This document shows positions 230 through 62,358 of a stretch of 64,000 bases of DNA, piece after piece. The notes under the pieces were generated by a model that saw nothing but the letters and a program-made list of their open reading frames with translations, searched no databases and was not told the DNA's origin. The stretch comes from Henricia sp. BOLD:AAB3569 (lineage: Eukaryota; Echinodermata; Asteroidea; Spinulosida; Echinasteridae). Position numbers and translations under genes: made by a program. Within the stretch, counting starts at the first letter, position 1; every line of letters begins with the position of its first letter. The stretch is taken from positions 310,001-374,000 of the forward strand of contig JBBELK010000005.1 of assembly GCA_037783545.1 (NCBI GenBank). Direction: 5' to 3'.

Positions 230-588
230 TTAAAGTTGTTCAAATTTTACCAGAAAATGGATTTCGTTTTAACCTAACAATCATGTAAAATACCTCCCCA
301 AAATACTATCCATGGGAAGAATTTAACAGGAAATTTGAAATCTCCAATTTGGATGTGGAAGCAAAAAGGTTGGTGTAATCACTGCACTGTTTTATGTAAC
401 CGGATAAATTAGTTTACAAAACGTCGGTGGTTTTTTGACGATATTCTTGAAAATATGGGGATTGAAAGCGCAGAATTTCAGAATGGTAATGAGAAAAAAT
501 ATGATAAATGATATGGTATCAAAATCTCAACACCCATGGGAAAAATAGGGAAGGGGGTCCAAAATGTGATCAGGACACACTCTTTTAA
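230..588 (+). mobile_element. TTAA-flanked MITE, family F2 (copy a)
   Basis: The element is bounded by TTAA at 230-233 and 585-588. Other copies lie at 13047-13602, 46050-46641 (-) and 49676-49925 (-). Its right half is homologous to family F1 (for example 'ttgacgatat' followed by a GTGATC..GACACACTC end). It has no coding potential. The right-hand TTAA is shared with the next element (F7). Confidence 0.75.
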
Positions 589-1172
589 AGGGCCCCTTAT
601 TTAGGATTGTTATCAATGAAATCTATGCTTTAAAACCACTCTACTCAGTTAAAGTCATAAAAATCCTATTTGGAGCTTGCTTTGGGGGTTAAAACAAAGG
701 TTTTTAGTTTTTATGCTAATGCAAATATGCATATTCATGACCAAGGTCACTATGTCACAAGAGGCAAACACAGGGAAAATCACATTCAACTGTGCACAAA
801 AGATTCCACTTTTTTCTCAATTTTCCTGAAACTTTTGTAATCCATGGCTGTTTGAGTTTGTTTTACATGTTGCCTGCTGTAAGCCATGACAAAACTGGGG
901 GTAGAAACTGCAGCAATTTGCCACAAGTCCAACTTGAAGTCTTATGTTTTTTCTTAACTTTTCCCTTCTGTCTTCCTTATGTGATGCACTAAAAACAGCG
1001 CCCTCTGTCTGTGATTTATTGCAATGAAATCTTCAAAGTTGAAAAAGGCCACCTTTTATTGATTTTACATCTAAACGAACAATAGTACCGGTATGTCTTG
1101 CTGGACAAGTAATCCGTCATTATGAAGCAAAGCTTAGGCACAAAGTTGTTTAGCATGTAACAGGCCCTTTAA
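585..1172 (+). mobile_element. TTAA-flanked MITE, family F7 (copy a)
   Basis: It runs from TTAA-AGGGCCCCTTATTT at the left to AGGCCCT-TTAA at the right, 588 bp. A second copy starts at 16282 with the same left end. Open frames inside are short and not shared between copies, so I do not call genes. Confidence 0.75.
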
Positions 1173-1396
1173 ATAGCTTACCCCGGTACATCTGGATATT
1201 AATACAAATTGCTTATGACTACGTAATCACTTTTGCTGTGGCGAAGACAATAATAAGGCATTTAATATGCATACATGTTCATTACCGCATTAATGAAGTT
1301 ACGGTACATGTAGTTGGGATTTGCAAGACAAAAATGCAGAGATTGTTCGTTAAAATTGTGAAGAAAAAAAAGTGATGTACCCAACATGTTATTACT

Positions 1397-2022: not shown

Positions 2023-2062
<40 letters not shown>

Positions 2063-2155: not shown

Positions 2156-2189
2156 ATAATAAATACAGAAATAAGAAATAATAAATACA

Positions 2190-3173
2190 GTTAATTAACG
2201 AGTTGACAGGGAAAACCTTACTCAGAGTAAAAATTGAACTGGTAGCAACTATCCAATGAAATGTTTTCACACGATGATATAATTTTACCAGAAAATAGTC
2301 TATGAAGATTAAATTATTCAGATCGTTTGCAAACAATTTACTTCTCATCTGGGCGGTCAGAAATGGGCGCTGTGTACAACGTGTATGCTGTTCCAACGCT
2401 TGTAATGCATCGCTTGGGTCGCGCACACAGGCAGTATGACACGCGCCACAGAGTGCATGACGCGAGCAACAGAGTACGCGACCGACTGAGAACAAATATT
2501 TAAAACACCCCGCCAAGACCGGCAAAACGCATAGATGCATTTTGATGTTTTTAGAAGACGTGGTACATTTGACAGAGCAGAAATTTCTTCGGATGAGTTT
2601 GTTGATGTCTTTCTTTTGATTTATAATGGTTTTATTCCCAGAATCGCTCAAAAACAGATCATCTACAGGGCCTTTAACTGAGATGGGTATTATGTACATA
2701 TAGTACAATGTAACTCATCCGAAGAAATTTCAGCTTTGTCAAATGTACCACGTTTAAAAAAACCATGAAAATCCATATGCGTTTTCCTGGTCTTGGCGAG
2801 GTGTTTCAAATATTCGTTCTCAGTGGATCGGGTATACAGTATGTGGCTTGCGTCATGCACTCTGTGGCGCACATCATATACTGCTTGTGCGCGCGATCCA
2901 TAAAAATGCATCGCGTTGGAACACGCACACGCAGTACACAGCGCCCATGCATTTTGGACCGCGTAGATGCAAACCAAAAATAAGTAAATCGTTTGCAAAC
3001 GATCTAAATAATTTCATCTTTACGTATTATTTTCTGGTAAAATTATATCATTTTGAGCGGAAACCTTTCATTGGGTAGTTGCTATTAATTCAATCTTTAC
3101 TTTCAGAACTTTTCCCCTATAAACTCGTCGATTACTTTTTAGGGTCATTGCAAATGATCCACTGGGCCTTTAA
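2190..3173. repeat. Large inverted repeat with ~400-bp arms
   Basis: The left arm (about 2190-2595) and right arm (about 2709-3110) are imperfect reverse complements. Both carry 'tcttcggatgag', 'ggcgaggtgtttcaaata'-like and 'ccagaaaata' blocks. A related single arm lies at 33743-34030. The segment ends with GGGCCTTTAA. Overlapping open frames on both strands come from the arms and do not resemble known proteins. Confidence 0.65.
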
Positions 3174-3825
3174 CAAGACAATTCTCAAATGTGTGCATAA
3201 TACACAACTTATGCGTGTACATGAATTATATCAAAAAAATAAAATCATTTTGGAATTTATTCTAAATTTGACACTTCTGCTCAAAAACTGCATTTCTCAT
3301 AATTGTGCCAAAATGAAATCAGCCAAGATTAAAAGGGATTAAATATTCATCATCTGTCTAGCTGTTGATGAGTTTAAACCTTGAAGCCCTAGAAACAAGC
3401 CCGTTAATGCTAGCAGGTTTTTAGGGGCAGCTGAATCCAGCTGTCAGGTGGAGGGAAGGTCCTTTTGATTGCTCCATGTCAATGGTGGAGCTGTGGGCCC
3501 TCCATCAAGACGGCCTGCTTTAAAGGGGCATGCCGCTTGGATGAATAAATACATGTATGTTTAATTCAAGGGTTTCACAATTGATCAAATGACGTCACTT
3601 CCTACATGTACAGATTGCCACGTGCATCAGAGTCTTGAGCGTATATTTTTGTGACGCGCATCTGCTGCGCCGTATTCCGAACAAATATAGCATAACACAC
3701 ACTCGTGTTTGAAACCTCAAATGACTTGACACGACTCAGACTTTTTACTCAAGTCTGCCAAAAAATAAAATAGATCATCTATGCATTTCTTGTAATTTTG
3801 GGGACCGAATTGTATTTCAGCACGA
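3174..3825. other. Non-coding stretch, nothing recognised
   Basis: No exon, SINE box, terminal repeat or tandem repeat was recognised here before the minisatellite begins. Confidence 0.4.
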
Positions 3826-4352
3826 AGGTTGTTTGACTTGACTTGACTTGGGACTCGAAGGCAGTTTGACTCGACTTGATTTGGGACTCGAGGGCAGTTT
3901 GACTTGACTTGACTTGGGACTCGAAAGGAGGTTTGACTCGACTCGACTTGAGACTCGAGGGCAGTTTAACTTGACTTGACTTAGGACTCTAAGGCAGTTT
4001 GACTTGACTTGACTTGACTTGACTTGGGACTCCAAGGCAGTTTGACGTGACTTGACTCGGGACTCAAAGGCAGTTTGACGTGACTTGACTCGGGACTCAA
4101 AGGCAGTTTGACTCGACTTGACTTGGGACTCGAAGGCAGTTTGACTCGACTCGACTTGACTTGGGACTCGAAGGCAGTTTGACTCGACTTGACTTGGGAC
4201 TCGAGGGCAGTTTGACTTGACTTGGGACTCAAAGGCAGTTTAACTTGACTTGGGACTCGAAGGCAGCTTGACTTGACTTGGGACTTGAGGGCAGCTTGAC
4301 TTGACTTGGGACTCTAAGGCAGCTTGACTTGACTTGACTTGGGACTTGAGCA
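3826..4352. repeat. 28-bp minisatellite, small array
   Basis: Tandem units of roughly 'cagtttgacttgacttggga' plus 'ctcgaagg' with variable numbers of 'gactt' pentamers. The array ends in 'gagcagagggaga', the same flank that ends the large array at 62640-63958. Open frames across it (SPKSSQVK-type peptides) are a by-product of the repeat. Confidence 0.9.
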
Positions 4353-5309
4353 GAGGGAGACATTGTTAGTTACAACCCTACTTTCAAGTTGGCACATTTT
4401 GCATTGCTTACTGTATGGTTAAGTCTCTTTGAAACATCTAGAGTCCCAGTTAAAGGATAATCCCACTGCTTATGTTCATGCTCATGTACATGTAGCAGTG
4501 CTATGAAATTGGGTTGGGGTCTCAAACATTATATGCCAATGAAAGTCCCTTTAACGGATAAATTTATAAAGTCTGGCAAATGCACTATCTGCATTATTCA
4601 AACCCAATGGAATGGCTTGTGGTACATGTACATGTACATGTACATGTATTATGGTACATCCAATGTCAGTACATGTACATGTATAAATCACACCCACAAC
4701 GTGACCCTTTTAACACCGAACAGAAATATATGCTGGAAGAATTTCAACCATTTCTTTCAGCGTGGGTGAAAATTGCAACATTTAACCGCCTCCCCTAAAA
4801 CCATCACACACTACCATGCTTTGGAAGGTGTCTGTCCCTTTAATGTTCTGAACTGCCAGACCTTGCCTGGCCAGCCTAATGTAATAAAGGCAATATAAAA
4901 AGGCCAGTAGTTACTAAAAATCTAGTTGGTATTATGAAAACAACTGGAAACCGGGCAGAAAATGTGAGTAGTTTTATAAACCTACCGTACGAGTATGACC
5001 TGAAGGGGGGAATGTGCTTTGTGTAAATACTCAGCTCCGTGTCGATATTCAAAACTGTTAATTTTGCCAAAATTATGTTTACACTCAGCCCCACTGCCCC
5101 AAGTTACATGACTCAAAGATGACACAAATTGTTTTCTGACACTCTCTGATTACCAATAACGAGATTTTTTTTTGACATCATCATGGATGAAGGAAATTTG
5201 TCTCAAGAACATTGCGAGGCCAAGGTGTAGCAGATATATGTACACAGACAGACACTAGGACCGTAGGATACAGTACAGATTTTCAGGCCTATGCATGTCC
5301 AGTTTGTGG
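4353..5309. other. Non-coding stretch with TACATG hexamer tracts
   Basis: Short runs of the self-complementary hexamer TACATG occur at 4621-4650 and 4669-4684. I see no exon or defined element in the rest. Confidence 0.45.
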
Positions 5310-5650
5310 GGTACCATGGCCGAGTGGTTTGGGTCATTGACTCGCAATCATGGGTGAAAACTTGGGGATGCGGGTTCGAATCCGGCTGTGGTACCTGTGC
5401 CCTTGGGCAAAGCACTCAACCACACTTGCTCCATCCTTCGGAAGGGGTGTAAAGCTGTTGGTCTAGTGTGTTAGGTAATGGTAACACACTCTAAAGATCC
5501 TAGAGCGTTCTTTTGTGAAGAGCAAGGGGATTCTCCGGTGTCTCTGGCCATTTCTAATTCTAATTCTTCCTCACGCTTGCGAGTGACAGTGCAATGAGCA
5601 CTATTGAGGAATCCTTGGTATGAATACCAGAAAGAAATAATAATAATAGA
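5310..5650 (+). mobile_element. tRNA-derived SINE (S1), near full length
   Basis: A Pol III A box (TGGCCGAGTGGT) and B box (GGTTCGAATCC) give a Ser/Leu-tRNA-like head. A conserved middle follows ('gcccttgggcaaagcac', 'ccttcggaagggg'), then a tail ending in AAT repeats. Other copies: 16890-17125 (-), 25575-25860 (+), 27091-27396 (-), 49465-49670 (-) and a fragment at 2023. The middle resembles a core seen in SINEs of several marine animals; I cannot name the family. Confidence 0.85.
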
Positions 5651-5693
5651 ACTCTGTAGATTTCTCTCAACAAAAAATCTGTAATTCTTGACA

Positions 5694-6591
5694 TTAAAGA
5701 TACATACAGTAGGTTACGTACAGTCCGTGGTTCTCAGCAAATTTGATTTTTTTTTTCCAAACGAATTTTTAAAGCATTTACTTTATTTTAAAGGAGTGTG
5801 ACCAAATCACTTTTTTTTACCCATAACTCCCCGGGACTTATCTTATGGGTCATGAGATTTTTATATCATAACATCCGTTATATTTTTCTGATTACGAAAC
5901 TGAAACTCCCGCGTTTCTAGGCCGCATATTTCCGAGGATATCGTCGAAAATCCACCGATTATTTGTAAACTAATTTTCCAGTATCAACGTTTATCCACTG
6001 AAAGCCGACTCGATAGTTTTGTTCAATTTGTTACTGGAAATCGCGAATGTTTTCGGGTTTTTGGGACATGGGAGGTGTGTATGGGAGTTACTTGATAATA
6101 TTGGTAAGTTACATCAAAAACTATTTTCCAGAAACTCTGGTCATGCTCCTTTAACGACAAAACATCATATTTTGTATTTTAGACATCCTGTGTAAAACGC
6201 CGTTTTTATACGGCTGTTTTTTACTCCTTTCTTATAGACTTGCCAAGGTCTGACTTTCCGTGTTTGGTCTGTGGTGCAGTGCGTGCAACGCACTTGTGGC
6301 CTACTAAATCTCTTTCTGAGGAAACAGAAGAAAACAGATTGGACAGGCCACAGGTTCAGGTTCAGAGGGCGCACTATCAGTGTGCGCTGCGCGTTGCAGA
6401 CCGAGCACGGGAGGTCAGACTTGGGCAAGTCTATGCCTTGAATTATTGGCAGACCGCCAATAATAACTAAACATTGGTCGATTTTTTTCGTTGAGGTCTC
6501 ATTTGAAAGGAAATAATTTTTTATGTTTCTAAAAAACTTTTTATTTTTCGAGGTGCAACACCCAAAACGCACGGACTGTATATATCTTTAA
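5694..6591 (+). mobile_element. TTAA-flanked MITE, family F4 (copy a), carrying a nested F1
   Basis: Ends are TTAAAGATAC..ACAGTCCGTG and CACGGACTGTATATATCTTTAA-like, with TTAA at 5694-5697 and 6588-6591. Copies at 39674-40252 and 42465-43017 lack the insertion, so this copy has been split by F1 at 5788-6154. The interior has an imperfect palindrome around 'cagattggacaggcca'. Confidence 0.8.
5788..6154 (+). mobile_element. TTAA-flanked MITE, family F1 (copy a)
   Basis: TTAA-AGGAGTGTGACCA at the left and a matching inverted end (TGGTCATGCTCCT-TTAA) at the right, 367 bp. It interrupts F4. The unoccupied F4 copy at about 42525-42545 reads 'tttattttaacaaaaattc' with one TTAA, so TTAA is the duplicated target. 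Confidence 0.88.
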
Positions 6592-8500: not shown

Positions 8501-10099
8501 CACTCGACCAAAAAAGTTCTGTCACCAGTAAGACATTTGTAGATATTTATTATGAAATTGGATTTAATGTAGGAAAATAATATATCAAATTTTAGCTGAA
8601 CATATCCCTCAAAGGAATAGAGCTCAAGAGAGATCATGATGGCAAGCTTCACTGAACAGGAATGCAACAAAGGAGTGTGGGGTCAGAATGAAAAACACCA
8701 AAGAACAATGCAACTTGTGATTTGGGCAATTTGTGTGTAGACAATTAGGAATTGTTTTAGTGAGTTTGGATTTGTCAATGTCTTGTCAAAAACATCCAAA
8801 TCCAAATGGTTAAATTGTCCAATCTGAATCATGCCATTGCATTAGGTATGGTGGAAGCAAAATACTGAACTGTAACTCCCCTTGCTTTGAGTGCAATAAA
8901 GAAGGTGTTTACACTTGATCCCGAGCTCGGGATCAAACACCGAGCTCGGGATCAGCCCCGGATCACGAATACATGTAGGTGTAAACGCTCTCGGAACCAA
9001 ACTGGCCCCGGATCAGACCCCGAGATTTTGGTCTCGCGATGGCGGAGGGTTCGATCCCGAGCTCGGGCAATAAATATTCCCGACATCCTGTTGCGGGCTA
9101 AAGCGCGCGAAAATTCCAGGGAAGCCCGCGCTCGTATTATGTTCACGTGTACACGTAGTACATATACACGCACACAGCTGGGTACCACTGGTTCCATCTA
9201 TTGCAGGCATATATGCCATGACAAAATGCATGATACCCCGACGCGACTCATGTGATGCAAAGCTAGCTGAGAATCTCGATCGCTGGTGTCCGTTACGAAA
9301 ACACAACGTACTACAAACGTAATTGGTATCCTGCATTCAGCAATCTCTTTTGTGTGTCCGATACAAACTTCACACGTTGAGAAAAAGTGTTTCTGTATTT
9401 CCTCTACTTTCTGCAACTTCTCTACTTTCTGCAACTATCTAGCGACACTTTGTCATTATCATACAGCTTAGTTTTTAGTTGTTATATCAAGGATTTCGGA
9501 GTGTCATTCAACGATTTCCGACATAGCATAAGTTGACATTATTTCGTCGTGAAGAGAAGTTGACGAAGACGAAGTAGCCGAGTCGAGTTGTCTTCGTGTG
9601 AAAAGATGGCAAACGAAGTTCGCGGGCGCTCGTGGAGCAACGACAAACTGGCGAAGTTTTTGGACATTTGGGCCAGCGCAGAAATAATGGCTAAACTGGA
9701 CGGAACATCTCGGAATTCTGCTGCGTTAGCTTGACCTTTGACTGCAACTTCTGGCTCCGCGCTCGGGATCAACAACAGATATAAACGCGGCACTCGAGAC
9801 CATTGCGGTTAACCTCAACACATTCTTATCAGGGGGTCAATCTTGATCCCGAGCTCGGGACCAGTGTAAACACGGTGAAAGTTGACATCGTTGTTTTTTG
9901 GTGTTTTTCATTCTGACCCCACACTCCTTTGTTGCATTCCTGTTCAGTGAAGCTTGCCATCATGATCTCTCTTGAGCTCTATTCCTTTGAGGGATATGTT
10001 CAGCTAAAATTTGATATATTATTTTCCTACATTAAATCCAATTTAATAATAAATATCTATAAATGTCTTACTGGTGACAGAACTTTTTTTGGTCGAGTG
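8501..10099. mobile_element. TA-flanked element with ~205-bp terminal inverted repeats
   Basis: 8501-8706 and 9893-10099 are nearly perfect reverse complements starting CACTCGACCAAAAAAG. Each end is flanked by TA (8499-8500; 10100-10101), the target of Tc1/mariner elements. No transposase was seen. Most of the interior is another element (8904-9876). Confidence 0.85.
8904..9876. mobile_element. Element with GATCCCGAGCTCGGGATC palindromic ends
   Basis: Both ends read inward from GTGTTTACACT into the perfect 18-bp palindrome GATCCCGAGCTCGGGATC, present more than once near the left end. A second copy is at 29519-29983 and a one-ended fragment at 26629-26665. It is GC-richer than its surroundings and has no recognisable protein. 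Confidence 0.8.
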
Positions 10100-12184: not shown

Positions 12185-13046
12185 GAATTTTGAATCCAGA
12201 AATGACCAAACATGGGATGGGGAAATGTTCCCAACCAGGATATGAACCAGAGACCTCTGACACACCGTTCAGATGCTCTACCAGCTGAGCTATGAGGCGC
12301 AGTGGTATACTCCCTCTGGTTTTCCCCAAGACCTCTGACACACCGGTCAGATGCTCTACCAGCTGAGCTACATGTATGAGGCACAGTGGTATACTTCTTA
12401 AGGTTTTTCCCCCAAGACCTCTGACACAACAGGCAGATGCTCTGCCAGCTGAGCTATGAGGCACAGTGGTATACTCTCTCAGATTTCCCCAAAGACCTCT
12501 GACACACCGGTCAGATGCTCTACCAGCTGAGCTACATGTATGAGGCACAAATGTATACTCCCTCAGGTTCCCCCAAGACCTCTGATACACCAGGCAGATG
12601 CTCTCCCAGCTGAGGTATGAGGCACAGTGGTACAATGTACACTCCCTCATGTTTTCCCCAAGACCTCTGACACACCGGTCAAATGCTCTACCAGCTGAGC
12701 TACATGTATGAGGCACAGTGGTATACACCCTCAGGTTTTCCCTAAAACCTCTGACACAACAGGCAGATGCTCTACCAGCAGAGCTATGAGGCACAGTGGT
12801 ATACTCCCTCAGGTTTTCCCCAAGACCTCTGACACACCAGGTACAGATGCTCTACCAGCTGAGCTACATGTACATGTATGAGGCACAATGGTATACTCCC
12901 TCAGATTTTCCCCAAAACCTCTGACACAACAGGCAGATGCTCTACCAGCTGAGCTATGAGGCACAATGGTAATACTCCCTCAGGTTTCCCCCCAAGACCT
13001 CTGACACAACAGGCAGATGCTCTACCAGCAGAGCTATGAGGCACAG
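12185..13046 (-). repeat. Tandem array of ten truncated tRNA-like units
   Basis: On the minus strand, 'TAGCTCAGCTGGTAGAGC' (a canonical tRNA A box) recurs about every 80-95 bp at roughly 12273, 12351, 12437, 12517, 12600, 12687, 12770, 12849, 12944 and 13019. Each is followed by an anticodon-arm-like TCTG..CAGA. Only the last unit in transcription order (12225-12245) keeps a B-box-like GGTTCATATCC. A single dispersed relative with B box is at 38328-38450. The open frames that run through it (AQLVEHLTG-type peptides) are tRNA sequence read as protein. Confidence 0.88.
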
Positions 13047-13602
13047 CTTGTTCAGATTTTTCCAGAAAAGAGATTCCGTTCTAACCTAACAATCATGTAA
13101 AATACCTCCCCCAAATACTATCCTTGGAAAGAAAACAGGAAATTTGCAATCTCCAATTTGGATGTGGAAGCAAAATGTTTAGTGTACTATAAAAGCCAAT
13201 ATTTTCGCGTACAGATATTTCCGCGCATTTCAACATCACTGACATTTTCGCGAGTTGTTATTTTCGCGGATGGAAATCATGTTTTGTTTCAGGGATCGCC
13301 ACAATTGTTGCAAACAATATTTTCGCCGGTTGTTATTTTCGCGGGCTCTGTCTGGTGCGCGAAAATAAAACCACCGCGAAAATTTCAGCTTTTACAGTAA
13401 TTACTGCACTTCTTTACGTAACCAGATAAAGTTTAAAAAACATCGGCGGGTTTTTGACGATATCCTTAAAAATACCTGTGGATTGAGAGCGCGAAATTTC
13501 AGAATGATAATGAGAAAATATGACAAATGATACGGTATCAAAATCTGAACACCCATGGGAAAAATGGGGGTGTCAAAAATGTGATCTGGTCACCCTCCTT
13601 TA
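13047..13602 (+). mobile_element. MITE family F2 (copy b), carrying a nested TA element
   Basis: Homologous to 230-588 throughout. The right end is TTAA at 13599-13602, preceded by GGTCACCCTCCT. The left end abuts the tRNA-like array and lacks TTAA. It is interrupted at 13187-13397. Confidence 0.75.
13187..13397. mobile_element. TA-flanked MITE with 'attttcgcg' interior
   Basis: Ends are CTATAAAAGCC and GGCTTTTACAG-type inverted repeats with TA on both sides (13185-13186, 13398-13399). The uninterrupted F2 copy near 373-385 reads 'ggtgtaatcactgcac' with a single TA, so this is a filled/empty pair showing TA duplication (Tc1/mariner type). The interior repeats ATTTTCGCG. Confidence 0.85.
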
Positions 13603-14264
13603 AGAGAAATAATTGTATGTGTGCGTACTTAGTCCCTATTGATTTAAGGCTACCCATTTTCTCTGAATTACAAAAACGTTGACGGTCTGCGGCAAACCAT
13701 GTTCGTCACATCCCGTGAAACACTCGTTGCGGTGCAGCTAGAGTCAGCGCACCCTGAATCCACATCAGCCATTAGCGCGGGGACAGAACAGAAATTGGTA
13801 ATTTTAAACCGACCCGCGGCCCGGACTCGCAGTGCAGTACGGTAAGAGTGCAGAGAGAGTTTTACCGCGCCCCAGGCAACGAACAGATAGCATCACAGCG
13901 ACGAACGGGAGAAGAAAAAAAAGAGAAAAAGATGATTTTTGTTTCCCTTAATGTCTCAATCTTTAGACTGTCTGTCTACCTAGAAACACTTGCATTACGG
14001 TACATCCGCATGACATTTCCTAGTGTGTGTTGTGGGGTGGGGGTGTGTGGGTGGGGGGCGGTGGTGGGGGTTGGGGGAATATCATCAGCTGCATTAGCTC
14101 AGTGTGACCGCTTTATTTTAATATTCAGACATTTACAGCAGCTGTTTTTAAGATTAGGCACAATTTAAGAAAATTTTAGTTGATCATTAACAATTTTAAC
14201 AACTTTCATTTCTGGCAGTAATTGATTTACCGTAGCTTGCGTCGGGAGAGTGAATTCATTTTTG
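13603..14264. other. Non-coding stretch with a G-rich tract
   Basis: 14030-14085 is almost pure G/T on the + strand, with several runs of four or more G, a possible quadruplex. The rest is unassigned and moderately CpG-rich near 13680-13850. Confidence 0.5.
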
Positions 14265-14637
14265 GTAATATTTCTGGCAATGACCCAATTTTGTCTTTCA
14301 TGAGTTGACAAGAAAAACATTACTCAAAGTGTTGATAGCAATGGTAACAAACACCACATGAATTCATTTCCATCCAAAATGGTATTTCATGCTGGAAATT
14401 GACAACCGAAGGTGGTTTTCTAAAATATTCCCCTGCACGGGACTTTTTTACAATTCACTTGAACACAAAATCCATATAGATTTTTAAGGTTTTCTGAAGC
14501 ATCGATGCATCTAAGTAGCTAAAGTTCCTTCAGGCTGGTCTACCAACATTCTTCCTTAGATATGTTAAACCCTTATTCCACGAATCTGTAAAAAGTTTTA
14601 TCTTGCAAATGATACATACATGTATTAGGGCCATTAA
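14265..14637 (+). mobile_element. MITE family F6 (copy c)
   Basis: It shares 'catgagttgacaagaaaaac' and 'aacaaacaccacatgaatt' with 51501-51874. The right end reads CTTGCAAATGATACA then TTAA at 14634-14637. The left TTAA is lost. Confidence 0.75.
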
Positions 14638-18442: not shown

Positions 18443-18806
18443 TTACCCCAATACATCATTTGCCATTACCAAAAATGCTGTATTTCACGAGTTGACAAGA
18501 AAAACCCTACTAAAAGTGTTGATAGCAATGGTAACAAACACCACATGATTTTTCCCGTGTAAAATGGTACCTTTGTGGGAGAAATTGCCAACGTGAAAAA
18601 AAATTGTCTGCAGACAACTTTTTCACCATTCATTCAACACAAAAAAACATGCATGGATTTTTAAGGTTTTCTGAAGCATTATTGCATCTACAGTATAACT
18701 TATAAGGCTCAAGTTTCTACAAGGCAGTTTATCAACATTATTCTTTAGTTATGTAATGCTGTTGTTCTGTTTATAAAAGTTTTCCAATCATTTAATCTGT
18801 CTTTAA
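18443..18806 (+). mobile_element. MITE family F6 (copy d)
   Basis: Collinear with 51501-51874 and 46893-47247 ('gttgatagcaatggtaacaa', 'catgcatggattttt'). Right TTAA at 18803-18806; left end decayed. Confidence 0.75.
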
Positions 18807-22402: not shown

Positions 22403-22614
22403 TTTACGGGAAAAAATACCGATTTTATGACCAATAAAATTGATCATAAACTTAAAATAATTCCTCTCGAATGTCCGACAGTGCAGAATGTTGTTGATCA
22501 TTGATTTTTTTCTTCTTAAATTGCCGTATGACGCGTCAGTACAGTAAGTGCAGATTTGATTTAAAAAAAAAACAAAATTAAGATTTTCACAGAAAACATT
22601 TTTTTTATTTTTCA

Positions 22615-45900: not shown

Positions 45901-48900
45901 TCATAACTTCGCCAAAAATTATCAGAATTTCCTCAAACATGTTTTAAAAGATACCTTTTTGTATGCACACTAAGCTGATACAAAAACTTAAATTTTTGAA
46001 TATTCATCACAAGTGTTAGGTTTTGCTGGAGCCGGTCACATATTTTTCTCTCTGTCATTTCGCACTTTTAATGGGTATATTTTCAAGGATATCACCGAGA
46101 ACCACCAATGTTTTGTAAACTAATTTATCCGGTTACTTAAAGGAGCGTGACCAGAGTTTCTGGAAAATAGTTTTCAATGTAACTTACCAATATTATCAAG
46201 TAACTCCCATACACACCTCCCATGTCCCAAAAACCCGAAAACATTCGCAATTTCTAGTAAAAAATTGAACAAAACTATCGAGTCGGCTTTCAGCGGATAA
46301 ACGTTGATACTGGAAAATTAGTTTACAAATAATCGGTGGATTTTTGACGATATCCTCGGAAATATGCGGCCTAGAAGCGCGGGAGTTTCAGTTTCGTAAT
46401 CAGAAAAATATAACAGATGTTATGATATAAAAATCTCATGACCCATAAGGTAAGTCCCGGGGAGTTATGGGTAAAAAAAAGTGATCTGGTCACACTCCTT
46501 TAAGGCAGTGCAGTGATTACGCTAACCTTTTTGCTTCCACATTCAAATTGGAGATTGCAAATTTCCTGTTTTCTTTCCATGGATATTATTTTTGGGAGGT
46601 ATTTTATATGATTTTTGGGTAAAATCTAGACAACTTCCTTTAGTTTGCTCATAATAATATTTTGTTCATTCTGGATTTTTGTTTTTGTTTTTCCCAGACT
46701 CGGACACATTGACGTGTTTCCCCTCATTCGCTGTTACGACCTTTTTGATTCGATTCAAGACAAAATAGTCATGCTCATGGAGTTGGACGAAAAAACAGCC
46801 GTCGACCTTCTGATTACGAACGTCAAAAAAGTTCCGGTGAGTTCCATTTTTTTGGGTCAATTTCCCCAAAAATCCCATAAAGTTGTTTCTAATTAAAGCT
46901 GCAATGCATCATTTGCAGTTACCCAAAATTTTACTTCGCAAGTTGACAAGAAAAAACAAAAAAATGCAGTATTTATAGCAATGGTAACAAACACCACATT
47001 ATTTTTTTTTTTTCGTGTAAAATAGTACATTTGAGAGAATATGCATTTTTAAAAAAAATAATCTGCAGACAATTTTTTTTACCATTCATTCAACACACAA
47101 ATCATGCGTGGATTTTTCAGGTATTCTGAAGTATTACTGCATATATGTGGCTGACATTTCTACAAGGCAGTTTATCAACATTATTAATTAGTTATGTAAT
47201 GCTGTTCCTGTTTTTAAAAGTTTTCCAATCATGTAATGTGTGTTTAATTTGCAGGTTAAAAATGTAGTCAAGCAGTTACACGAGCACCCAAAACTCCTCT
47301 ATTGTGTAAGTAATTTTTTAAAAGTTCCTGTACGTAATGGTTAAAGATAGTATACATGATTGGTAAACTGTTACAAATAGTTTTATCCCCCTGTGTGATT
47401 GAAGATAGGTATGATTAAAACCAACCTGAGCAAAAACCAGCTCCGTACTTCGTCTAACTTTTGAGAAAACAGTCAAAAAAGGGTTTGCAGTCATTTCGCC
47501 CCAAAACCACTTCGCCCTGAACCATTTCGCCCTGAACCACGGCCTGTGCACGAAGTGGTTTTGGGGCGAAGTGGCATTTGAGCGATGTAGTGTTTGGACG
47601 AAGTAATTTGGGGCGAACTGGCACTCGGGCGAAGTGGTTTGGGGTGAAATGGCACTCGGGCGAAATGGTTTTGGGGCGAATTGAATTTTCGTCTCATGAG
47701 ACAAAAATTGTTTTACTCATTTCTCAAAGACTATAGCACTTCAGACAAAACCATTTCAGGGGAAGTTTTCTACGGTCATCATGTTTATATTGTGTAAGTT
47801 TGGCGTAAATCTGTGAACATTTCTGATTTTCGAGATTACCAATGATGTATACTGCCTTTAAATTATTTTAGTTGTATGTACGAAGGTTGTGCACAAGACA
47901 GTTTTAGGGCCAACTTTAGAGGTCGACATTTAGATCAATTTTAAGCCCCAGTCCCATTTGGGGGAAAGTCTTTACGACTCGTGATGATTTTAGATCGCTG
48001 GTAGTCCTCGGGTAGTTGCAAGCTATTCGTAAAGACATTCGTAATCATTCGTTAACCATCGCTTGAAGTCGTAAAACGATCGTCGCATCGCTCTGAGTCG
48101 CCCGCCAATTTCAAAATGTTCAAAAACTTCGCAAGCTGAGGTAAATATGGAATTTTTCGTAATGATTCGCAATTGTATCGTAAATAATCGTAAACATGTC
48201 GTAACTATTCGTGAATGCATCGTAATGTCGTCGTCATGTTCGTAAGATAATCGCAAGTAATCTGCAAAAGCAAAATCCACGATTACGAATCAACGTCGTC
48301 GTTCTCATGCGGAAATCCAAAACACAAATTGGCGCTGCACGTCGCCACGTGACGACAATTTTTCACAACAGTGTCTAAACAGCATCTCAAATTCTTGTGA
48401 ACACGTCGTCAACCATCTCTAGTATTAACAAGCTATCGCAAGTGCTTCGCAAATAGTTGTAAGGGCATGGTAAATGCTCGTAAAGACTTCGCAAGTGTTC
48501 GAAAATCCTTCGCAACTAGTCGTAAATATTTGTAAAACTTTCAAGTTAAAAATTTGTTAAATTAGTTAAAGTTAGGCGAATCATTGCGACGCTAAGATCG
48601 CAATGATTCGTAACCGTTATCGCTCAAGTGGGACTCTAGCTTCGTTTTAGAAGTTCAATGGGTTAAGCTCCTTTTACACGTTTGAATTTACACTTTTGAA
48701 TTTACGATTTTGAATTTACGATTTTGAATTGTGAGCATTCGTAAGGGCATTCGTAAACATTCATCAAGACAATCGTAAACATTCTTAAACGATCGTAAAC
48801 ATTCTTAAACGTTCGTAATAATTCGTGTTGGTCGCAAAGTCATTACAAACGTTACGAATTTTCGTAAACGGTCGTATCTTCGCAACCGGTCGTGAGAGAT

Positions 48901-51900
48901 CGGAATCAAGTCTTAACAAGGTCGTAAATAATCCTAATGCATCGTGAAGGTTCTTAACCATTCCTTTTAAGATCTTTTAAGTTTTCTTTACGATTTGATA
49001 CGAATGTAATTAATTCACGTGATCGTCATAATTTCCAGGAAACCGCAACAGAAAATCGTAAAGAATCGCAAGCGATCGTAATGGCATCGGATACGACAGT
49101 AAAAGATCGCAGAAAGTCATAAAGCAAGCGGGATGCATTGTAAAACGTCGCATTTTGATCGCAAACAAGTGTTGTATCAGATTCGCATCAAAATCGCATC
49201 GAGGTCATACGGTATGTGGTCGTGAGCCGTCGTAACAGAATCGCAAAACGTCTTGTTGTTTTTTCGGTCGTGTCCGTCATGGTAATTAGACATTTCCAGG
49301 CTTTTTTCATTACGACGTAATGCGATTCTTACATCGTGTTGATTCATATCGATTCGTATCCAAAATCATGTAAGTTTAAAAGGGGCTTTATTAGAAACTT
49401 CAATTCACAGCCTGTAGGCTGAATTGCATTAAGCTTACAAGCATCTTCCACCTAAACATCGAGATACATAGGTGGGTGGTGCCATTGCCAGCCAACGGCC
49501 AAAGACACTGGGGAATCCCCCTACTCTTCCTGAAAGAATGCTCTGGGATCTTTTAAGTGTGTTACACAACACACTGGACCAATGGCTTTACATCCCTTCC
49601 GAAGGATGGAGCAATTGTGGTTAAATGCCTTGCTCATGGGCACAGGTACACCAAGTTTTCATCTGAACGTTGACTTTGATACCATATCATTCTCGCGCTC
49701 TCAATCCGTATACTTTCAAAGATATCGTCAAAAAAACACCAATGTTTTGTAAACTAATTTATCTGATTCCATAAAGCAGTGCAGTGATCACACCAACCTT
49801 TTTGCTTCCACATCCAAATTGGAGATTGCAAATTTCCTGTTTTCTTCCCATGGATAGTATTTTGGTGAGGTATTTTATATGATTGTTGGGTTAGAACGAA
49901 ATTCATTTTCTGGAAAAATCTTTAAATTTGGCTTTTTTTTTGGGCAGTATTTGGACGCCCTCTTCCGCACCCACCCTCACCTCACTCAAGATTTCCAAGC
50001 GCTCCTCGTCACGCTTTATGCCGAGTTTGACCGAGATAGGCTCCTACCGTTCCTGCGAAACAGCCAGCACTGCCCCATGGAAGTTGCGCTTCAAGTCTGC
50101 GAGCAGCGAAGTTTCATTCCAGAAATGGTCTTTTTGTTAGGTCAGCAAACTAACTCTTGTAACTTCAAAGCGGGGGAAACACTTGGGGCGAGTTTGTTTC
50201 ACGACAGATCCGAGTTTAATACCGCGCAGAAACAAACGAAACTGCTCTCAACTGGGTAATTCCCAAAATTAGGGGTCCAAAACTGTTGGTGTCCCAGTTA
50301 CGTACGACACTGTCTGCTTAAAAAATCACCACTCATGATCACAAATTCCCAGTAATGGACTGTGGCCTGTGATTATAGGGGCAGCATCATTTTTCTCAAT
50401 ATTTTGTTCCCTGATTCCTGAAAAATATTAAAAACAAAAGACCATAAAGGCTTATAATTTGTTCCATGGTATTGAATAGGAGTTTGGTGTCCCGGGTTAC
50501 GTACGCCAATGAAAATTGGCTGTAGAATGAGTTTGCATTAATCTTGGTGCCATACCTACCTACACACAAACATTAAATTTGAGTGGCATTTGTTGAAATA
50601 AAAATAATTAGTTTCTACTGGGAAACTAAAAACACTAAAAACACTTTGAAATCTTAAAAAGCATGTCACACTTTTGGACCCCTAATTTAGGGAATTACCC
50701 AACTAGGAATTCAAGTCACGTGAATTGGATCTGCGCAGATCTGAATCTGGATCCGTCCGAAACAAACTCGCCCTTGTTTAAAATTTATCAAAACAATTAT
50801 TTAAAAATGCTTTCTACAAAATGGGAAATGATAAATTTTGGGTCTTAAAGTTGCACTGTCCGTGTTTGGGTGAAAGGATTAAAATATTAATTTGCACAAG
50901 CGAACGAATTTAGAATGCTTACGTGTCTCCACCCAAAACTGAACTGATTTGCATATTAAACTCCACCCACAACTGTACTAATTTGCATAACTCCACCTCC
51001 CTCTTTGTAGGTCGAATGGGCAACACCACGCAAGCTCTGCGGCTAATTATTGAAGAGTTGCGCGATGTCAACAAAGCTATCGATTTTGCCAAGGAACACG
51101 ACGATACTGCGCTGTGGGATGAGCTTATCGATGCTTCGATGGATAAGCCATGTAAGTTTTTGTGCCAACACGACGCTTTTTTTTTTTTTTCGTCACCAAA
51201 CTTGGCAAATTTTGAAACACGCTAAACAGAAACCCAACTTTCAGCTGTTGTTGAAATATCCCAGTAAGCAACAGGCAAGGGTCTTCTGTGGTAGTGACCA
51301 TCATCTCAAAATGGAATCATTACCGATGATGGTATTTGAAAATTTTGCATTGATAAGCAAAGCAGACGATGATCGCGCACGAACAAAACAGACGACAGCG
51401 TTGCGCGCACAATTTATTCGCGTCCTTATAACATCAAGCCTTATGAAATACACTCATGCTTGAGCCAAATTTTCGTGCTATGCTTTATGACAAAGTCCAC
51501 TTAAAGGCCTATTGTATCATTTGCAATGACCCAATTTTGTTTTTCATGAGTTGACAAGAAAAACCTTACTCAAAGTGTTAATAGCAATAGTAACAAACAC
51601 CACATGAATTTATTTCCGTCCAAAATGGTATTTCATGTTGGAAATTGACAACCGAAGGTGGTTTTCTAAAAAAGTCCCGTGCACAGGACTTTTTTACCAT
51701 TCACTTGTACACAAAATCCATATAGATTTTCAAGGTTTTCTGAAGCATTGATGCATCCAAGTAGCTAAAATTTCTTCAGGCTAGTTTACCAACATTCTTC
51801 CTTAGATATGTTACACTCTTATTCCACGAATCTGCAAAAAAGTTGTATCTTGCAAATGATACATAGGCCTTTAAGTGTAACATGTTTTATTTTTTCAAAT

Positions 51901-54900
51901 GTTATGAAAACAGCCCAAATCATACTTAAATTTGATAATTCAAGATTAAATTTCCCATTTTTTTAGCATTTATCACTGGTCTCCTTAACAACATCGGAAC
52001 ACACGTGGATCCCATTATTCTCATCAAAGTAAGTTAAAATATACTTTTCCCAAAATAAAAGAAATTTTCTTAAAATATCAATAATTGTTCAGAACAGAAG
52101 TTTGTCGAATACAGTGAACTTGTGGATAACAAGGCACTGATCGACCAATCACTTTGGATTCGCTTTCATGACTGTTCTGCTTCAGTGATTTCCTCCAGGT
52201 CCAAGAGGACCTGTTTGAACAAAGTGATTCCCACAGCAATGAAATGTGACATTTCCTGTTTCTGGGAGAATCGTTTAGTTAAGGGCTCTCAGAAAACCAA
52301 TTTTGTTGCGTTATCAACCTGATTGAAACTGCATTGGATGAGCCGACCTCTGAAGCCACGCGTCTCCCAAACGGCCCTAGAAGTGCAGGAGCTCAGGGAG
52401 GCACTTCAGGCAGAGTGGCGCACCGTGCCTCAGTGGCTCTTACAGAGGCTGGTGCAGTCAGCCTTGTCACAAGAGGTGTTCATACACGTTACTGACCGAC
52501 GTTACTGCCCGATCTTTCGAGTATAATTTACGTTTCCTTTTTAATTGGAAATTTCACCGACAGCGAATCAAAGAAGGGATGAATATCCCAGGTCTACGAG
52601 ATTCTCTCGTCAAGATTCTGCAAGATTACAATCTTCAGATCTCGCTCCGCGAAGGATGTAAAAAGATTCTGGTCTCCGATTGTTTCGCTCTGATGGACAA
52701 GCTGAACAGAATACAAAAACGTGGAATCAAAATCGAAGGTAGGTCGCTTGACACTGCACCGGGGGTTGTAGTCAAGTCTATCACAAGTCCAGAGCCGATA
52801 AAATCACAAGTCCGTCACAAGTCCGTCACAAGTCCGTCACAAGTCCGTCACAAGTCCGTCACAAGTCCGTCACAAGTCCGTCACAAGTCCGCCACAAGTC
52901 CGCCACAAGTCCGTCACAAGTCCAGTAATAAGAAGCAAAGGATGAACACGCACAAAAGAATGCCTTTGTTGGAGTTCATTTGAATAGCTTGTCTTGAATT
53001 AAGACCCAGGGACTTAACATTTTTAAAAATTTATTTCCTTTTTTTATTTCAGAGGAACACCACTGCGGATGTTGCCATGCATCACTTTTGGTCGGCGGTA
53101 AGTATAGTATAGAGAGCTGCATTGTGATGTCATGTGGCAAAAATGCTCACTGTAAATGCACAGGGAAAAGTGCGGTGATTTTTGTACGTAGCCAGATCTT
53201 GACAACGTATAAAAATGTAAGGTTAGTTCAGACATTGTATGAATTTGTTTCTTTTGGTGTGTTTTGTTTTTGATAGTTTATCAATTTTTTTTGTAGATGG
53301 ACAGACTGGTCTAGTGATCTTCTATTGCCATCACATCTTTCATGAAGAATGTCTTTTAGCTCAAAATACGGTAAGAAAATTCATTAAGTCCAGGGGCGGA
53401 TTGCAATATGCGGTCTAAGACCGGTCTAAAGGCTTAGCCGGCTATCGCGGCGTCTACTAAGACCGGTCTATAATTATAGCACGCTTGCAATATCGTTGTC
53501 TTAAAGTTAGACCAGTCTTAAGATTTAAGCCCGTGGCGAGCAGGCTATAATTTTTCGACACCGTGCTACATCTCGTAATTTTGAACAAAACGCCCATTGG
53601 AGCCTTTTTAGTGCTATTTCATAACTTTCGCGGTCAGTTTCTCTGCAAAAAATGCATCACACACGCGCCATGAAGTGGCTTCGTGAGGACGTATGTTTGG
53701 CTTGAAATCACACAAGGATAGCCGGCTGTGTCACTTTCCGTTAAGATCTGCGTGTTTTTCGGCTGGCACAGCCGTACTTCAGTTAAACTGGTTTATTGCA
53801 ATGGGCTAAACCAGCGACTAAGCCGAGACTGGCTAAGTTGGATAGCCGGCTATGAAAGACCGGTCTTAGACCAGTGGCTAAGTCGATTTTATTGCACTCT
53901 GCCCCAAACTTAACATACAGCCTATAAGGTTATCGCTTTATGGAGTTTACCGATTGTCTTTCATAGTAAAAACACAAGGGTGTAGCGCCTGGTCCTGCGC
54001 AAAATGCTGCATCAACTCAATGCTTGATGGGTACCAGTGACCGTGCCCTGTGGGCTGGTTCCATATGGTCGACCAGACACGACTAACCATCGTTGACTAG
54101 ACTGCGTTCGGTTAGAAATAGTCGAACTATAGTTAAAGATAGTATACATGATTGGTAAACTGTTACAAATAGTTTTATCCCCCTGTGTGATTGAAGATAT
54201 TTATGATAAAAACCAACCTGAGCAAAAACCAGCTCCGTACTTCGTCTAACTTTTGAGAAAACAGTCAAAAAATGGTTTACAGTCATTTCGCCCCAAAACC
54301 TCTTCGCCCTGAACCACGGCCTGTGCACGAAGTTGTTTTGGGGTGAAGTGGCTTGGGCGAAGTAGTGTTTGGACAAAGTAGTTTGGGGGCGAAATGGCAC
54401 TTGGGCGAAATGGTTTTGAGGCGAACTGAATTTACCTCTCGCGAGTTGAAAAATAATTGTTTTGCTCATTTCTCAAAGACTATAGCGCTTCAGACAAAAC
54501 TATTTCAGGGGAAGTTTTCTACCGTCATCATGTTTATATTGTGTAAGTTAGGTGTAAATCTGTGAACATTTCTGATTCTTCGAGATACCAATCATGTATA
54601 CTGCCTTTAACTATAGTTGTGAATCGAACTTGTTACGAGTGTTCACGCCATTTTTCACCTCTACCGAAAGCCGATAACTCCGTTTTGGGGCAATAAAAAT
54701 TCAACTGATTTAATAGTTATCGCCTCGGTTATCGGCCCAAAGTTATCAGCTAAATTGAGCTGATAACTGGCCTTATCGTTCCACCATCCCACACACTCCC
54801 ATTACACTGCATGGTGGGTTAACGGTTTACGGTAGGATACCTGGAATTACACGGAAAATTCGTCACTCCGTTCTGTTTCTACTAGGCCCATGAACCGGTT

Positions 54901-58713: not shown

Positions 58714-58760
58714 CTAATACCTGGACAATAGGTTTTGGAGTTCATTTTCTGTCGGCTTGC
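58714..58760 (-). CDS. Kelch gene, last exon
   Basis: After a pyrimidine-rich acceptor (TTTCTCCTCTTAG), 14 codons KPTENELQNLLSRY and a TAG at 58714-58716, in the phase required by the previous exon. Confidence 0.75.
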
Positions 58761-61700
58761 CTAAGAGGAGAAAAAAAAATATTTTGAGTGTAAAAAAGTT
58801 CCAAAGACCAACAGAACTTTGTTGCAACCTACCCGGGTACACAAACCAGAGGCTTGGTTTGCTTTTAATAGCAAGAAACATATTTCTGACATGATCCAAC
58901 GATCAGCTTTAGAAATCAGCAACCAAAGCTGATGAGTGATTATTGGTTGAACCCGTGATCGGGGCTGCGTTCCACTTTTATAGGCCTACGCAAATGTTGC
59001 CAATGTTCGCCACTAATTTGTTAGTGTTTCCCACGGCAAACACTTAAACCCAAAGAATCGTCTCAAGGCTGCCGTTAACCCGGTAATTCGTAACCCCGAG
59101 ATTTGCCGTGGGAAACAAGCCCTTAACCCGGCTAATCTCGGGGTAAAATTTTTCTGTTACCCGGGTTATCTCTGGGTTAAAGCGTCGTGGGAAAAGGCCT
59201 TTGTTATTCAAAATGCATGTTTGAATAAAATGGTCTGGTGCCTTACCTTGCACAATGCAACATTTCCACACTGACATAGGGCTGGAGTTCTGGTGGAGAC
59301 TACAGGAACCAGTCTCTTCCCCACCCATCAGATATAGAAACACAGGCCACGTCCACTTGTCCTAATAAATAATGTTTAAAAATTAGAATAATAATAGAGG
59401 TTCAGGCCAAACCAGGCAACTTCATAATCTAGGTTTTCCCGGATCCCGATAGGGAATCTTCTTACATGAACAATTTTCTTTCAAGACAAGTTATGTCATT
59501 GTTTGTGCAATGAACACCCTAGTTCATGAACCTGGGGTCGATTTCACCAAACTCTTTTGATCTCTGAGCATCTGCCCACATGAATTTTCTCTCGTGCCAT
59601 GTATTTCGAGCATTAAAAAAAGGGTACGCCCCCCAAAATGCATAATATGTACACAGCCACTGTCTAAAATGTTACTTTTTTACTCAAATGCTGTGGTACT
59701 TACATCTTCGTCACAACTGACTTTTTTCTGTTCCAGGCGTTTTCCTGAAAAATTTTCAGATTTTAATCCTAACGTCCGGGGTCTCTGTATATCTCCGCAG
59801 CTTTTATCGGCAAGACTTGTGATCGGCAATGTTTGTGATCGAATGTGAAGTTTAGATCTTTTGTTGTTGCACTCAGAAGATCCCAAATTGGACATTTCTT
59901 GGATTTTCACGTTTGGTGAACAGATAACTTTGCTGTATTCTTCAGCGGACATTTCCAAAATCTTGTCATTTGTGGGTTTCACAAGGATGACGTGGTGTTG
60001 AGAATCGGGTTCAAACTGCTTGGGCCGTGATTGGTGGATGAGATGATTCGCCGCGTCCGATTGGTCAGTGGTGCCATTCACAGTAAGCAACGGAGGCTGT
60101 GATTGGTTGTACGGATTGACATGTCCAGTGTGTGAATATAAGGTAGTTTCTGATTGGTTGGTTGGTTTATACACTCCATCTGATTGGTTGACAATTTTAC
60201 TCTCTGTTGTGTCGAGAGTGTTGACATTACTGGCGACATTGCAGGTGAAATCTTCAAACGACGAAACAAAAGCGTTGTTTACAAAAGTGGCGAGTGGTTT
60301 TTTTTCGTTTGAATGAAGTAGCTCTTGTTTGTCCACATGCTCTCCCTCGGTTTTAATACTTGAACTCTGAGAAAAATCTCCAACTTTATTGAGATGTCCG
60401 ACACGGAAAATGTCAGCTTTACTCGTGGAAGTTCGTTCTACAAGATTCTTTGGTTCTCGTGGATTTTGTTCAGTAAGGCATTCGGAAACACTAGTTTGTT
60501 CGGTATCAAAACAATTGCAGCTTTCAATGCAGGCAGAAGGGCGCTCTATAAAAGTGCTACAAAATTCACAAGAAACTTGTCCTCCGAAAATATCTCTTGG
60601 CAAACTGATTTTATTCTTGGAAATTTCTGGAAGATTGTTGCACATTTTGTCAGACTTGGAATTATCTGTTTCAAAACCGAGCAGGTCTGATGACTTACAT
60701 GCACACTCTATATTTGTGCTTGTAGCAATGCGATCTGTCGTTGTTCGTACGGGCGACGGTGGCTCACTCGGAACGTCTTCAAGTATCCATTCGTGGCTAC
60801 GCAAAGACGCATTAGATTTCTGCGTTTCGTGCTGACTCAATTTACTGACGTCAACTCCGTGAAAATGTTCAACGGTCGGTTTTTCGCTTGTGAGAATATT
60901 ACTCGTCGTTTGATCTTTTTCGTTGCATTGCTCATGTAATGTAGAGGATAAATCTGCCCAACGGCCATTTTCAGTCCAAGTTCCATAGATTGCTGCATCC
61001 TTTGCCATGGCCCACCTCCCACCTTCCATTTTTGTTCCGGCTTCCTCATTAGTACTGTTGTCAGTATTTGTATGAGTCGACACGTCATTTTCATCACGCC
61101 CGCTTTCGGTGTTAAGTTCTTTGTTTACTGAATCAAATCCAATCTTAGGATTTGTGTCTGTATTTTCAGTAGGAGTTGGATGAACCCTGTTTGTAAAATG
61201 GTGGATTGTGTTATGTCTATCGTTAGCCATGACGGGCGGGGACGAGTGCGGTCTTAAGACGAACAAATCTGCAAGGTGTCCTTTGGGGGTCGACAGCGCT
61301 CCATTGGGTTGCTGGCTGCTGGGGTGGGCTTGGGTGGGAGCCGATTGGGGTCGGGGGTCAGGCTGGGGTCGGGGGTCAACCGCAGAGGGGTACAGTCGGG
61401 ATTCTTCCATTTGGTTTGAGGGGAGAGATATTAAGACATGACGTGTGCATGAAGTGGGTGCGACTCGTCGATTCGGGGTTACGCTGTGCCAGGTACTGGA
61501 GCCTATAAAATAGAAATTTGAGACAAAATTCATCACATGGTCATCCAGGCTTATAAACACTCTGTCCTTTGAATCACGGATAGATGGAATAATTTACATT
61601 TAAAGGCAGAGGCTCGTCAGCAATGCGCGCGCGCCAAATTAGTGCTACGAAATACGCAGCTTCATAGCAAAGGCGTGGAGCTGCGTATTTCGTGGCACGA

Positions 61701-62358
61701 ATTTGCCGCACGCGCATTGCTGACGAGCCTGTGCCTTTAATTCAACATTCAATTTTTTTTTTGTGGGCAATTCCGGAAATTCAAATTTACACTTCAGAGA
61801 CTTTGAGGGCTTGTAATGCTTCACGTATTCAAGTTGTTTGATTTTAAACGCATGTTCTTCAAGCATCATTGATGGAAGTGTAATTCCTGAAAAACTGATT
61901 GTAATGCCATTCTCAGTAAGTGTGTAGGGTCCCCAAAACCCTCGGTTTCGGACGTACTCAATGAGTACGTCCGAAACCGAGATTTTTTTGGATGTACCGC
62001 GCATATTGAGAATGACATTACAATAAGTTTTTCAGGAATTACACTTCCATCAATGATGCTTGAAGAACATGTGTTTAAAATCAAACAACTTGAATACGTG
62101 TAAAATTGAATTTCCGGAATTGCCCTGTTTATTTGTTTGCTTTCTTTATAAATCTTTATTTATCTAAAAAAAGTTTTTAAATTAATCACGATCATTTCAC
62201 TTCCTTACCAAAGTCAAATCTCCACAGATCTTTCCTAAATGCCCCTTCGCCGTCCTCGCCACCAAATATGACCATACTGTTGGCGACGCAAACTGCGCTA
62301 TGGCCGTGCAGAAACCCAGGACTTGAACGACTTTTCACGCGGATCCACGTTCGCGACT
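58714..62358 (-). CDS. Kelch-repeat protein, 3' part of gene (four exons)
   Basis: Joined minus-strand exons 62358-62209, 61502-59704, 59361-59247 and 58760-58714 give about 702 residues with matching phases. The first exon and the start of the second encode a kelch blade (HGHSAVCVANSMVIFGGEDG ... DLWRFDF-GSSTWHSVTPN) with the usual GG pair and spaced W. The next ~570 residues are rich in S, T, N, P and Q and look disordered. The chain returns to a kelch-like strand (WTWPVFLYLMGGEETG) and ends NLLSRY-stop. Kelch propellers often act as substrate adaptors or scaffolds; this one's partner is unknown. Earlier blades and the start lie beyond 64000. No F-box or BTB is visible here, and I could not assign an orthologue. 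Confidence 0.85.
59247..59361 (-). CDS. Kelch gene, penultimate exon
   Basis: 38 codons: DKWTWPVFLYLMGGEETGSC ... VWKCCIVQ. Acceptor ATTTATTAG, donor G|GTAAGG. It contains a kelch GG motif after the long insert. Confidence 0.88.
59704..61502 (-). CDS. Kelch gene, 599-codon exon
   Basis: Starts by completing the kelch strand (GSSTWHSVTPNRRVAPTSCT), then continues as a long hydrophilic segment with little predicted order: PRPQPDPRPQSAPTQ near the start, many NQS-type residues, no transmembrane segment. Acceptor TTTTATAG, donor GAT|GTAAGT. Confidence 0.92.
61600..61740. mobile_element. TTAA-flanked palindromic MITE, family F3 (copy c)
   Basis: TTAA at both ends (61600-61603, 61737-61740), AGGCAGAGGCTCGTCAGC and inverse. 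It lies in the intron between the kelch exons, 97 bp upstream of the long exon's acceptor. Confidence 0.9.
61765..62125. repeat. 361-bp palindrome (kelch intron)
   Basis: GGGCAATTCCGGAA to its inverse. The centre is a perfect hairpin (CTCGGTTTCGGACGTACT and inverse, 61941-61981). The left arm has about 29 extra bases ('cagagactttgagggcttg'). Confidence 0.88.
62209..62358 (-). CDS. Kelch gene, first visible exon
   Basis: 49 codons plus partial codons: SRTWIRVKSRSSPGFLHGHS ... VIFGGEDGEGAFRKDLWRFD. Acceptor TTTTTTAG, donor G|GTAAGG. 5' neighbours must lie to the right of the window because 62640-63958 is minisatellite. Confidence 0.9.

Follow-up and report, generated by a model that had tools for sequence, protein, structure and literature searches.

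Mobile elements of the window

The window analysed here, 64 kb of the sea star Henricia sp. (bases 310001-374000 of contig JBBELK010000005.1, called C5 below, in an assembly of 740.7 Mb), contains 27 copies of miniature inverted-repeat transposable elements (MITEs) of about ten sequence families. With a probability of about 0.85 these are non-autonomous DNA transposons of the Kolobok superfamily, served by a helper elsewhere in the genome. Repeats were mapped and sequences were read in the window, and the adjoining 200 kb were then added, giving 264 kb searched; positions in this longer stretch are preceded by "big", and the window position is the big position minus 200,000. Copy totals in the window were counted by hand from the repeat maps and the sequence reading. 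The initial annotation had announced at least 22 copies, and its outer coordinates 230 and 61740 agree with the ends of the A' element at 230-588 and the C element at 61600-61740. The structure is that of MITEs, with many copies whose bodies measure about 140-590 bp and whose inverted ends are similar. By family, the window holds three copies of A, four of A', five of B, three of C, two each of D, Lx, K and F, one of N and three of E:

230-588, unstranded: A' element; TTAA-AGTTG left, TTAA-AAGAGTGTG right; TTAA at 585-588 common with F
585-1172, plus: F element (581-588 bp); TTAA-AGGGCCCC left, TTAA-AGGGCCTG right
2197-2677, plus: K element; truncated on the left; TTAA-AGGCCCTGTAGATGATC on the right
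2712-3173, minus: K element; end TTAA-AGGCCCAGTGGATCATTTGC at 3173; opposite end missing
5694-6591, plus: E element, split by A at 5788-6154
5788-6154, plus: A element lying in E, 367 bp; TTAA-AGGAGYRTGACCA at either end; empty site found
about 13045-13603, plus: A' copy; another repeat inside at about 13186-13400; left edge approximate; right end TTAA-AGGAGGGTG at 13603
14277-14618, plus: D copy, 93% to D 51501-51874; degraded ends
16282-about 16864, plus: F copy; TTAA-AGGGCCCC on the left; has lost its right end
18449-18806, plus: Lx copy; right end TTAA-AGACAGATTAAATGATTGG
22615-22987, plus: A element; TTAA at both ends
33705-34315, plus: N element, split by C; one end only, right, TTAA-ATACAG; about 116 bp in common with the B end
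33821-33960, unstranded: C element lying in N; near-palindromic, 140 bp; empty sites found
36051-36559, minus: B element; left tetramer TTGA
39696-40247, plus: E-like copy without clear ends
40719-about 41240, plus: B element; right end approximate
42465-43017, plus: E element; TTAA-AGTTAT left, TTAA-AGATGC right; right TTAA common with B
43014-43541, plus: B element (528 bp)
46060-46626: A' copy split by A into 46060-46136 and 46504-46626
46137-46503, minus: A element; nested in A'; empty sites found
46893-47247, plus: Lx element (355 bp); TTAA at both ends, followed at the right end by ACACAC
47341-47861, plus: B element
about 49689-49922, minus: partial A' copy
51501-51874, plus: D element (374 bp); the host repeat has an unfilled copy at 28319-28397
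54133-54610, plus: B element; palindromic target AACTATAG-TTAA / TTAA-CTATAGTT
58409-about 58530, unstranded: C element; right end truncated
61600-61740, unstranded: C element; TTAA at both ends

Fourteen of the 27 copies have TTAA at both ends (A, three; A', one; B, three; C, two; D, one; Lx, one; E, two; F, one). Each of A, A', B, C, D, K, Lx, E and F includes copies in which homology stops at TTAA and the DNA beyond differs. Minus-strand frames of 128-171 aa with similar translations (40588-41103, 47318-47704 and 54083-54469) overlap three B copies and were taken as incidental.

Ends and target sequence

The list of window ends comprised 37 entries, one of which (229) was read as TTAA-AG at 230-233 and another of which, at 2680, was an arbitrary query edge and was excluded. 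Of the remaining 36, 35 lay on TTAA and 33 continued with AG, the exceptions being the TTGA at 36051 and the starts AA at 588, AT at 34315 and AC at 47247. In the 264 kb, TTAA was present at 84 of 95 listed ends and AG came next at 86 of the 95, compared with 8.8% of the 3,742 TTAA sides that form the background of the same stretch. These 95 ends include the query copies, the arbitrary edge and copies from segments that are themselves duplicated (big 21421, 32505 and 63942) and are therefore not 95 independent events, and the query sequences had themselves been cut at TTAA. The first two bases showed the purine-purine (RR) start, being AG in 86 cases, AA in 4, AC in 2, and GT, AT and TG in one each, the single TG being the arbitrary edge; none of the 95 ends started with CC. 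The proposal of the initial annotation that the elements are bounded by TTAA, nearly always followed by AG, was thus borne out in both stretches.

For family F, the same was observed at genome scale. Of its 40 best-scored genomic places 28 were read, one of which is a window copy (locus L001). TTAA bounds 27 of them on either side, and the remaining one shows a single-base change at the right; the flanks differ from place to place, except that two (L018 and L028) carry identical ones. The 22-base B end AGATAGTATACATGATTGGTAA has 2,599 + 2,770 = 5,369 exact matches in the genome, and its control has none.

Counting TTAA pairs was rejected as proof, as similar inward 16-mers gave 16 pairs for TTAA against 23 for AATT, 15 for GTAC and 14 for CATG; some other tetramers do as well as TTAA, since a long inverted repeat yields such pairs whatever the tetramer. 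What speaks for the elements is their homologous copies, the flanks of these and the empty sites, and not the TTAA-pair statistics. Four long inverted repeats (45082-45996, 22028-22406, 8510-10089 and 61815-62107), in which TTAA occurs only inside the arms, were not counted and are probably other foldback or transposon families.

Empty sites and nested insertions

For 30 copies the flanks were joined around one TTAA and searched against the available sequence. Unfilled sister sites with one TTAA-like tetramer were found for five copies and none for 23, while two were dropped (D at big 117985 and F at big 119455) because the apparent empty sites were the ends of neighbouring elements. The A element at 5788-6154, lying in E, has its sister site at 42486-42601; the one at 46137-46503, lying in A', has 13 sisters, not counting the window itself read a second time, and the majority of these show CATAA where the filled site has CTTAA. 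Sisters such as 2994-3097 correspond to the C element at 33821-33960 in the N/K repeat, the D element at 51501-51874 has a sister at 28319-28397 (ATTAAGCG), and an F copy outside the window (C5:299496) has one at C5:298921-299001. These sites show the empty site better than its exact letters, because several sisters have a tetramer other than TTAA.

Elements lying end to end and sharing one TTAA were found in the window at 585-588 (A' and F) and 43014-43017 (E and B), and outside it at big 21421 (A' and Lx, present again in a duplicated segment), 117985 (D and Lx), 127128 (K and C) and 192351 (K and C). As a rough estimate, the 36 mapped ends occupy about 8% of the 460 TTAA sites of the window, so that end-to-end insertions need no special preference.

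Relationships and age of the families

The end groups are fewer than the sequence families. The motif ATSATTK occurs about ten bases in from the ends of B, D, K and Lx, AGGAGYGTG is common to A and A', and C, E and F stand alone. With these shared motifs, the families are less unrelated than the initial annotation had described them. The arrangement TTAA-RR-N5-10-ATSATTK occurs at 34 sites, compared with 3 to 6 behind TATA, ATAT, AATT, AAAT, TAAT and ATTA; TAAA (31 matches) and TTTA (15 matches) were dropped as controls, as they overlap with TTAA-AG ends. At least five of the 34 sites (big 198646, 198912, 244621, 248566 and 250845) are outside the mapped families and may be due to chance. One tentative explanation, which we regard as possible but rather doubtful, is that a single lineage of Kolobok transposases reads a subterminal code (AG, about eight bases, ATSATTK) and moves at least the four largely different MITEs B, D, K and Lx, whose bodies would have been captured from unrelated DNA between shared end codes instead of arising by internal deletion from one parent.

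Divergence from the family consensus, counted as substitutions only, was 0.8-2.2% in A (four copies), 1.6-2.7% in D (three copies), 1.8-8.0% in six of seven B copies (the other, 19%) and 2.8-7.8% in seven of eight C copies (the other, 21%). In F it was 0.7-2.8% in 29 of 31 copies and 7.3 and 9.5% in the other two, these copies being the best-scoring ones, which biases F towards young elements. Such values suggest several waves of transposition, some of which may be recent.

Transposases in the genome

No recognisable Kolobok-type transposase was detected among the frames of at least 170 aa in the 264 kb, nor did tblastn with three Kolobok-like pieces give any match there, in agreement with the annotation, which had reported no transposase in the window. 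Elsewhere in the genome there are 101 THAP matches and five matches to PF20700, four of them in an array on contig C871 and one beside a THAP exon on contig C921 (L056). The Kolobok-like exon of L056 has 82 matches genome-wide, 13 of which have a same-strand THAP match no more than 10 kb upstream when the lists are compared by eye. Among these 13 places the one on C921 was read, and it consists of a THAP exon and a PF20700 exon, while other places that combine THAP and Kolobok-like matches are on C599, C122, C195, C62 and C373; a D-type end is also present in L056 (position 2099).

The array at C871:237404-250783 (L055, L057, L058 and L061) belongs to KolobokP and has TTAA on both outer sides, the outer flanks reading TTAA|GGGTGCACC and GCAACC|TTAA. 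Its PF20700 matches fall in three units, one of them split in two; the unit measures about 4.2-4.3 kb, and a single stop breaks up the transposase of L055. At three of the four expected places we read long terminal direct repeats (LTDR) of about 480 bp, which are 99% identical and have short terminal inverted repeats. The array is a KolobokP multimer, most likely a trimer with the layout (LTDR-INT)3-LTDR. Its TTAA flank is one case only, because KolobokP has no strong target sequence preference according to PMC9587614.

For piggyBac, all 116 scored matches (of 422 candidates) were above the Pfam cut-off, none of them on C5. Most have open frames of about 420-760 aa, and dozens have a frame of the same 538 aa with close scores; elements with a 527-aa frame also occur. 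Eight equal-score matches with 538-aa open frames lie at C1249:1304-82721 and form a tandem array, four of the seven spacings being 7,994-7,995 bases.

The THAP proteins of L049, L050, L052, L059 and L060 were not taken as Kolobok, since they look like ISL2EU transposases, by resemblance and not by a database label; L051, L053 and L054 were also read but assigned to no class. L059 and L060 also have on the opposite strand a frame that resembles an exonuclease, and a C element is located at L049:1282-1424 between two open pieces of the ISL2EU-like transposase frame.

Assignment to a superfamily

The superfamily was assigned by termini and target, and the signatures of the candidates were taken from PMC9587614, PMC6004289 and PMC2872659. 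According to these, Kolobok elements duplicate TTAA and have 5'-RR and YY-3' termini, unlike piggyBac (PMC9587614); ten Xenopus Kolobok elements have AG ends with differing terminal repeats (Table 5 of PMC6004289), and Kolobok transposases have been proposed to move the T2-MITEs of that genus (PMC6004289). The hallmark of piggyBac is CC[C/T]T, described as necessary for its transposition (PMC2872659). The preference for Kolobok over piggyBac that the initial annotation had based on the AG ends is reinforced by this RR/YY signature and by the absence of CC among the 95 ends. As for its helper elsewhere, Kolobok-like transposases are indeed present in other parts of the genome, while their role as helper is what we infer.

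Under this assignment, a Kolobok-type transposase made elsewhere in the genome, with a DDE catalytic core and, as is often the case in animals, a THAP DNA-binding domain, would bind short terminal and subterminal signals, cut the element out next to TTAA and join it into another TTAA, which would be duplicated. One of the Kolobok-like transposases of this genome may move these families, the same or a closely related enzyme perhaps acting on the ATSATTK families (B, D, K and Lx) and others on A/A', C, E and F.

A possible link to family B was found in L062 (C210:40500-46300). Its positions 2857-3111 hold a Kolobok-like fragment that shares 47% identity with the L056 exon over 43 residues. Two stretches that match the initial 139 bases of B (4309-4422, 73%; 5240-5388, 78%) follow about 1.3 and 2.3 kb downstream of the fragment, both oriented as right termini and without a B body. 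The outer one reads TTAA-AGGCAGTATACATCATTGG. Among the 82 matches of the L056 exon, 21 span roughly the same 36-39 residues and score similarly, and they are candidate copies of this fragment. The neighbourhood is suggestive only.

Several observations weigh against the Kolobok assignment. We saw no complete element in which two of these terminal repeats enclose a transposase frame. The identification of PF20700 and of the GDGR-DSPGH block as Kolobok is our own assumption and not a database label, and the Pfam name of PF20700 is "Mutator-like transposase"; the neighbouring THAP exon, a DPSH motif and the KolobokP layout are the further basis for it. The KolobokP locus on C871 is not the direct parent of the MITEs, because it has a different terminal repeat and, as read, GG ends. 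In L062 the inner B-type end reads ATAA-AGGCAGTATACATGATTGG, with ATAA and not TTAA; the 5.8 kb yielded no left end, and Pfam gave no family for the fragment at E 0.001. The 264 kb contain 29 B-type ends, a density of about 0.055 per kb per strand, at which the 2.4 kb concerned should hold about 0.13; two were seen, but the place was chosen after the fact, and the arrangement could be a coincidence. Finally, piggyBac, also TTAA-specific, is abundant, most of its 116 matches being open-framed, and the 3.3 kb in which its ends were looked for contained no TTAA-CC pair.

This abundance is an argument for regarding the elements as piggyBac-dependent MITEs, moved by an enzyme that tolerates AG ends. 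The target is the same, the TTAA duplication is likewise present, and an active enzyme may exist among the many copies of the 538-aa frame. However, the ends do not have the CC[C/T]T of piggyBac (PMC2872659), since 86 of 95 are AG and none is CC. Moreover, beside the one piggyBac locus that was read (L063) there was no MITE-type end, the best candidate being 14/20 behind TTCA. We consider this explanation very unlikely.

The elements could also be solo LTDR left by KolobokP composite transposons instead of classical MITEs. KolobokP is present in the genome, with its repeats of about 480 bp, short terminal inverted repeats and TTAA flanks, and B, F and E (about 460-590 bp) approach the lengths of about 450 and 660 bp given in PMC9587614. 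Against this, four families fall below these lengths, namely C (140 bp), A (367), D (374) and Lx (355); moreover, no match of the one C871 stretch compared falls in a listed element, and no LTDR-INT-LTDR arrangement with these families was seen, although no genome-wide search for it was made. This origin is improbable.

Sola3 is another TTAA-specific superfamily, and it or an undescribed one might be the mover. This would accommodate the fact that no parent with both terminal repeats was found, so that the superfamily rests on the ends and the duplication. Nevertheless, RR/YY ends together with TTAA are Kolobok features (PMC9587614). In addition, Kolobok-like transposases are in the genome, no search having been made for Sola3. 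We give this alternative the least credit of the three.

Other repeats

A 28-base minisatellite is common to both ends of the window (62700-64000 and 3792-4393), and 33-base repeats occur at 3792-4391. At 12207-13053 there are about ten tandem units of 78-92 bases that resemble a tRNA over part of their minus strand (AGCTCAGCTGGTAGAGC); a single relative is at 38354.

Relation to known systems

Elements of this kind are already known, and those of the window are a further example. They resemble the T2-MITE and XKol Kolobok elements of Xenopus in the TTAA target, the AG termini, the long-lasting activity and the existence of several families with different terminal repeats (PMC6004289). The T2 motif AGGRR, compared as a motif and not with the frog sequences, is present in A and A' (AGGAG) only; the consensus ends of B (AGATA/AGGCA), C (AGGCA), D (AGGCC) and F (AGGGC) do not have it. 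With the KolobokP composite transposons (PMC9587614) they have in common the RR/YY ends, the array of this genome also having TTAA outside; KolobokP differs in its end sequence (GGGTGCACC) and in its direct repeats, which measure about 480 bp. In corals, the CMITE piggyBac MITEs (PMC2872659) likewise use TTAA and comprise several families with different ends, some in tandem, whereas their ends are CC[C/T]T. The results point to a genome with very numerous Kolobok-type MITEs (more than 5,000 exact ends of one family) beside Kolobok-like, KolobokP and piggyBac transposases. Such a genome is well suited to studying which elements are moved by which transposase when several of these enzymes have the same target.

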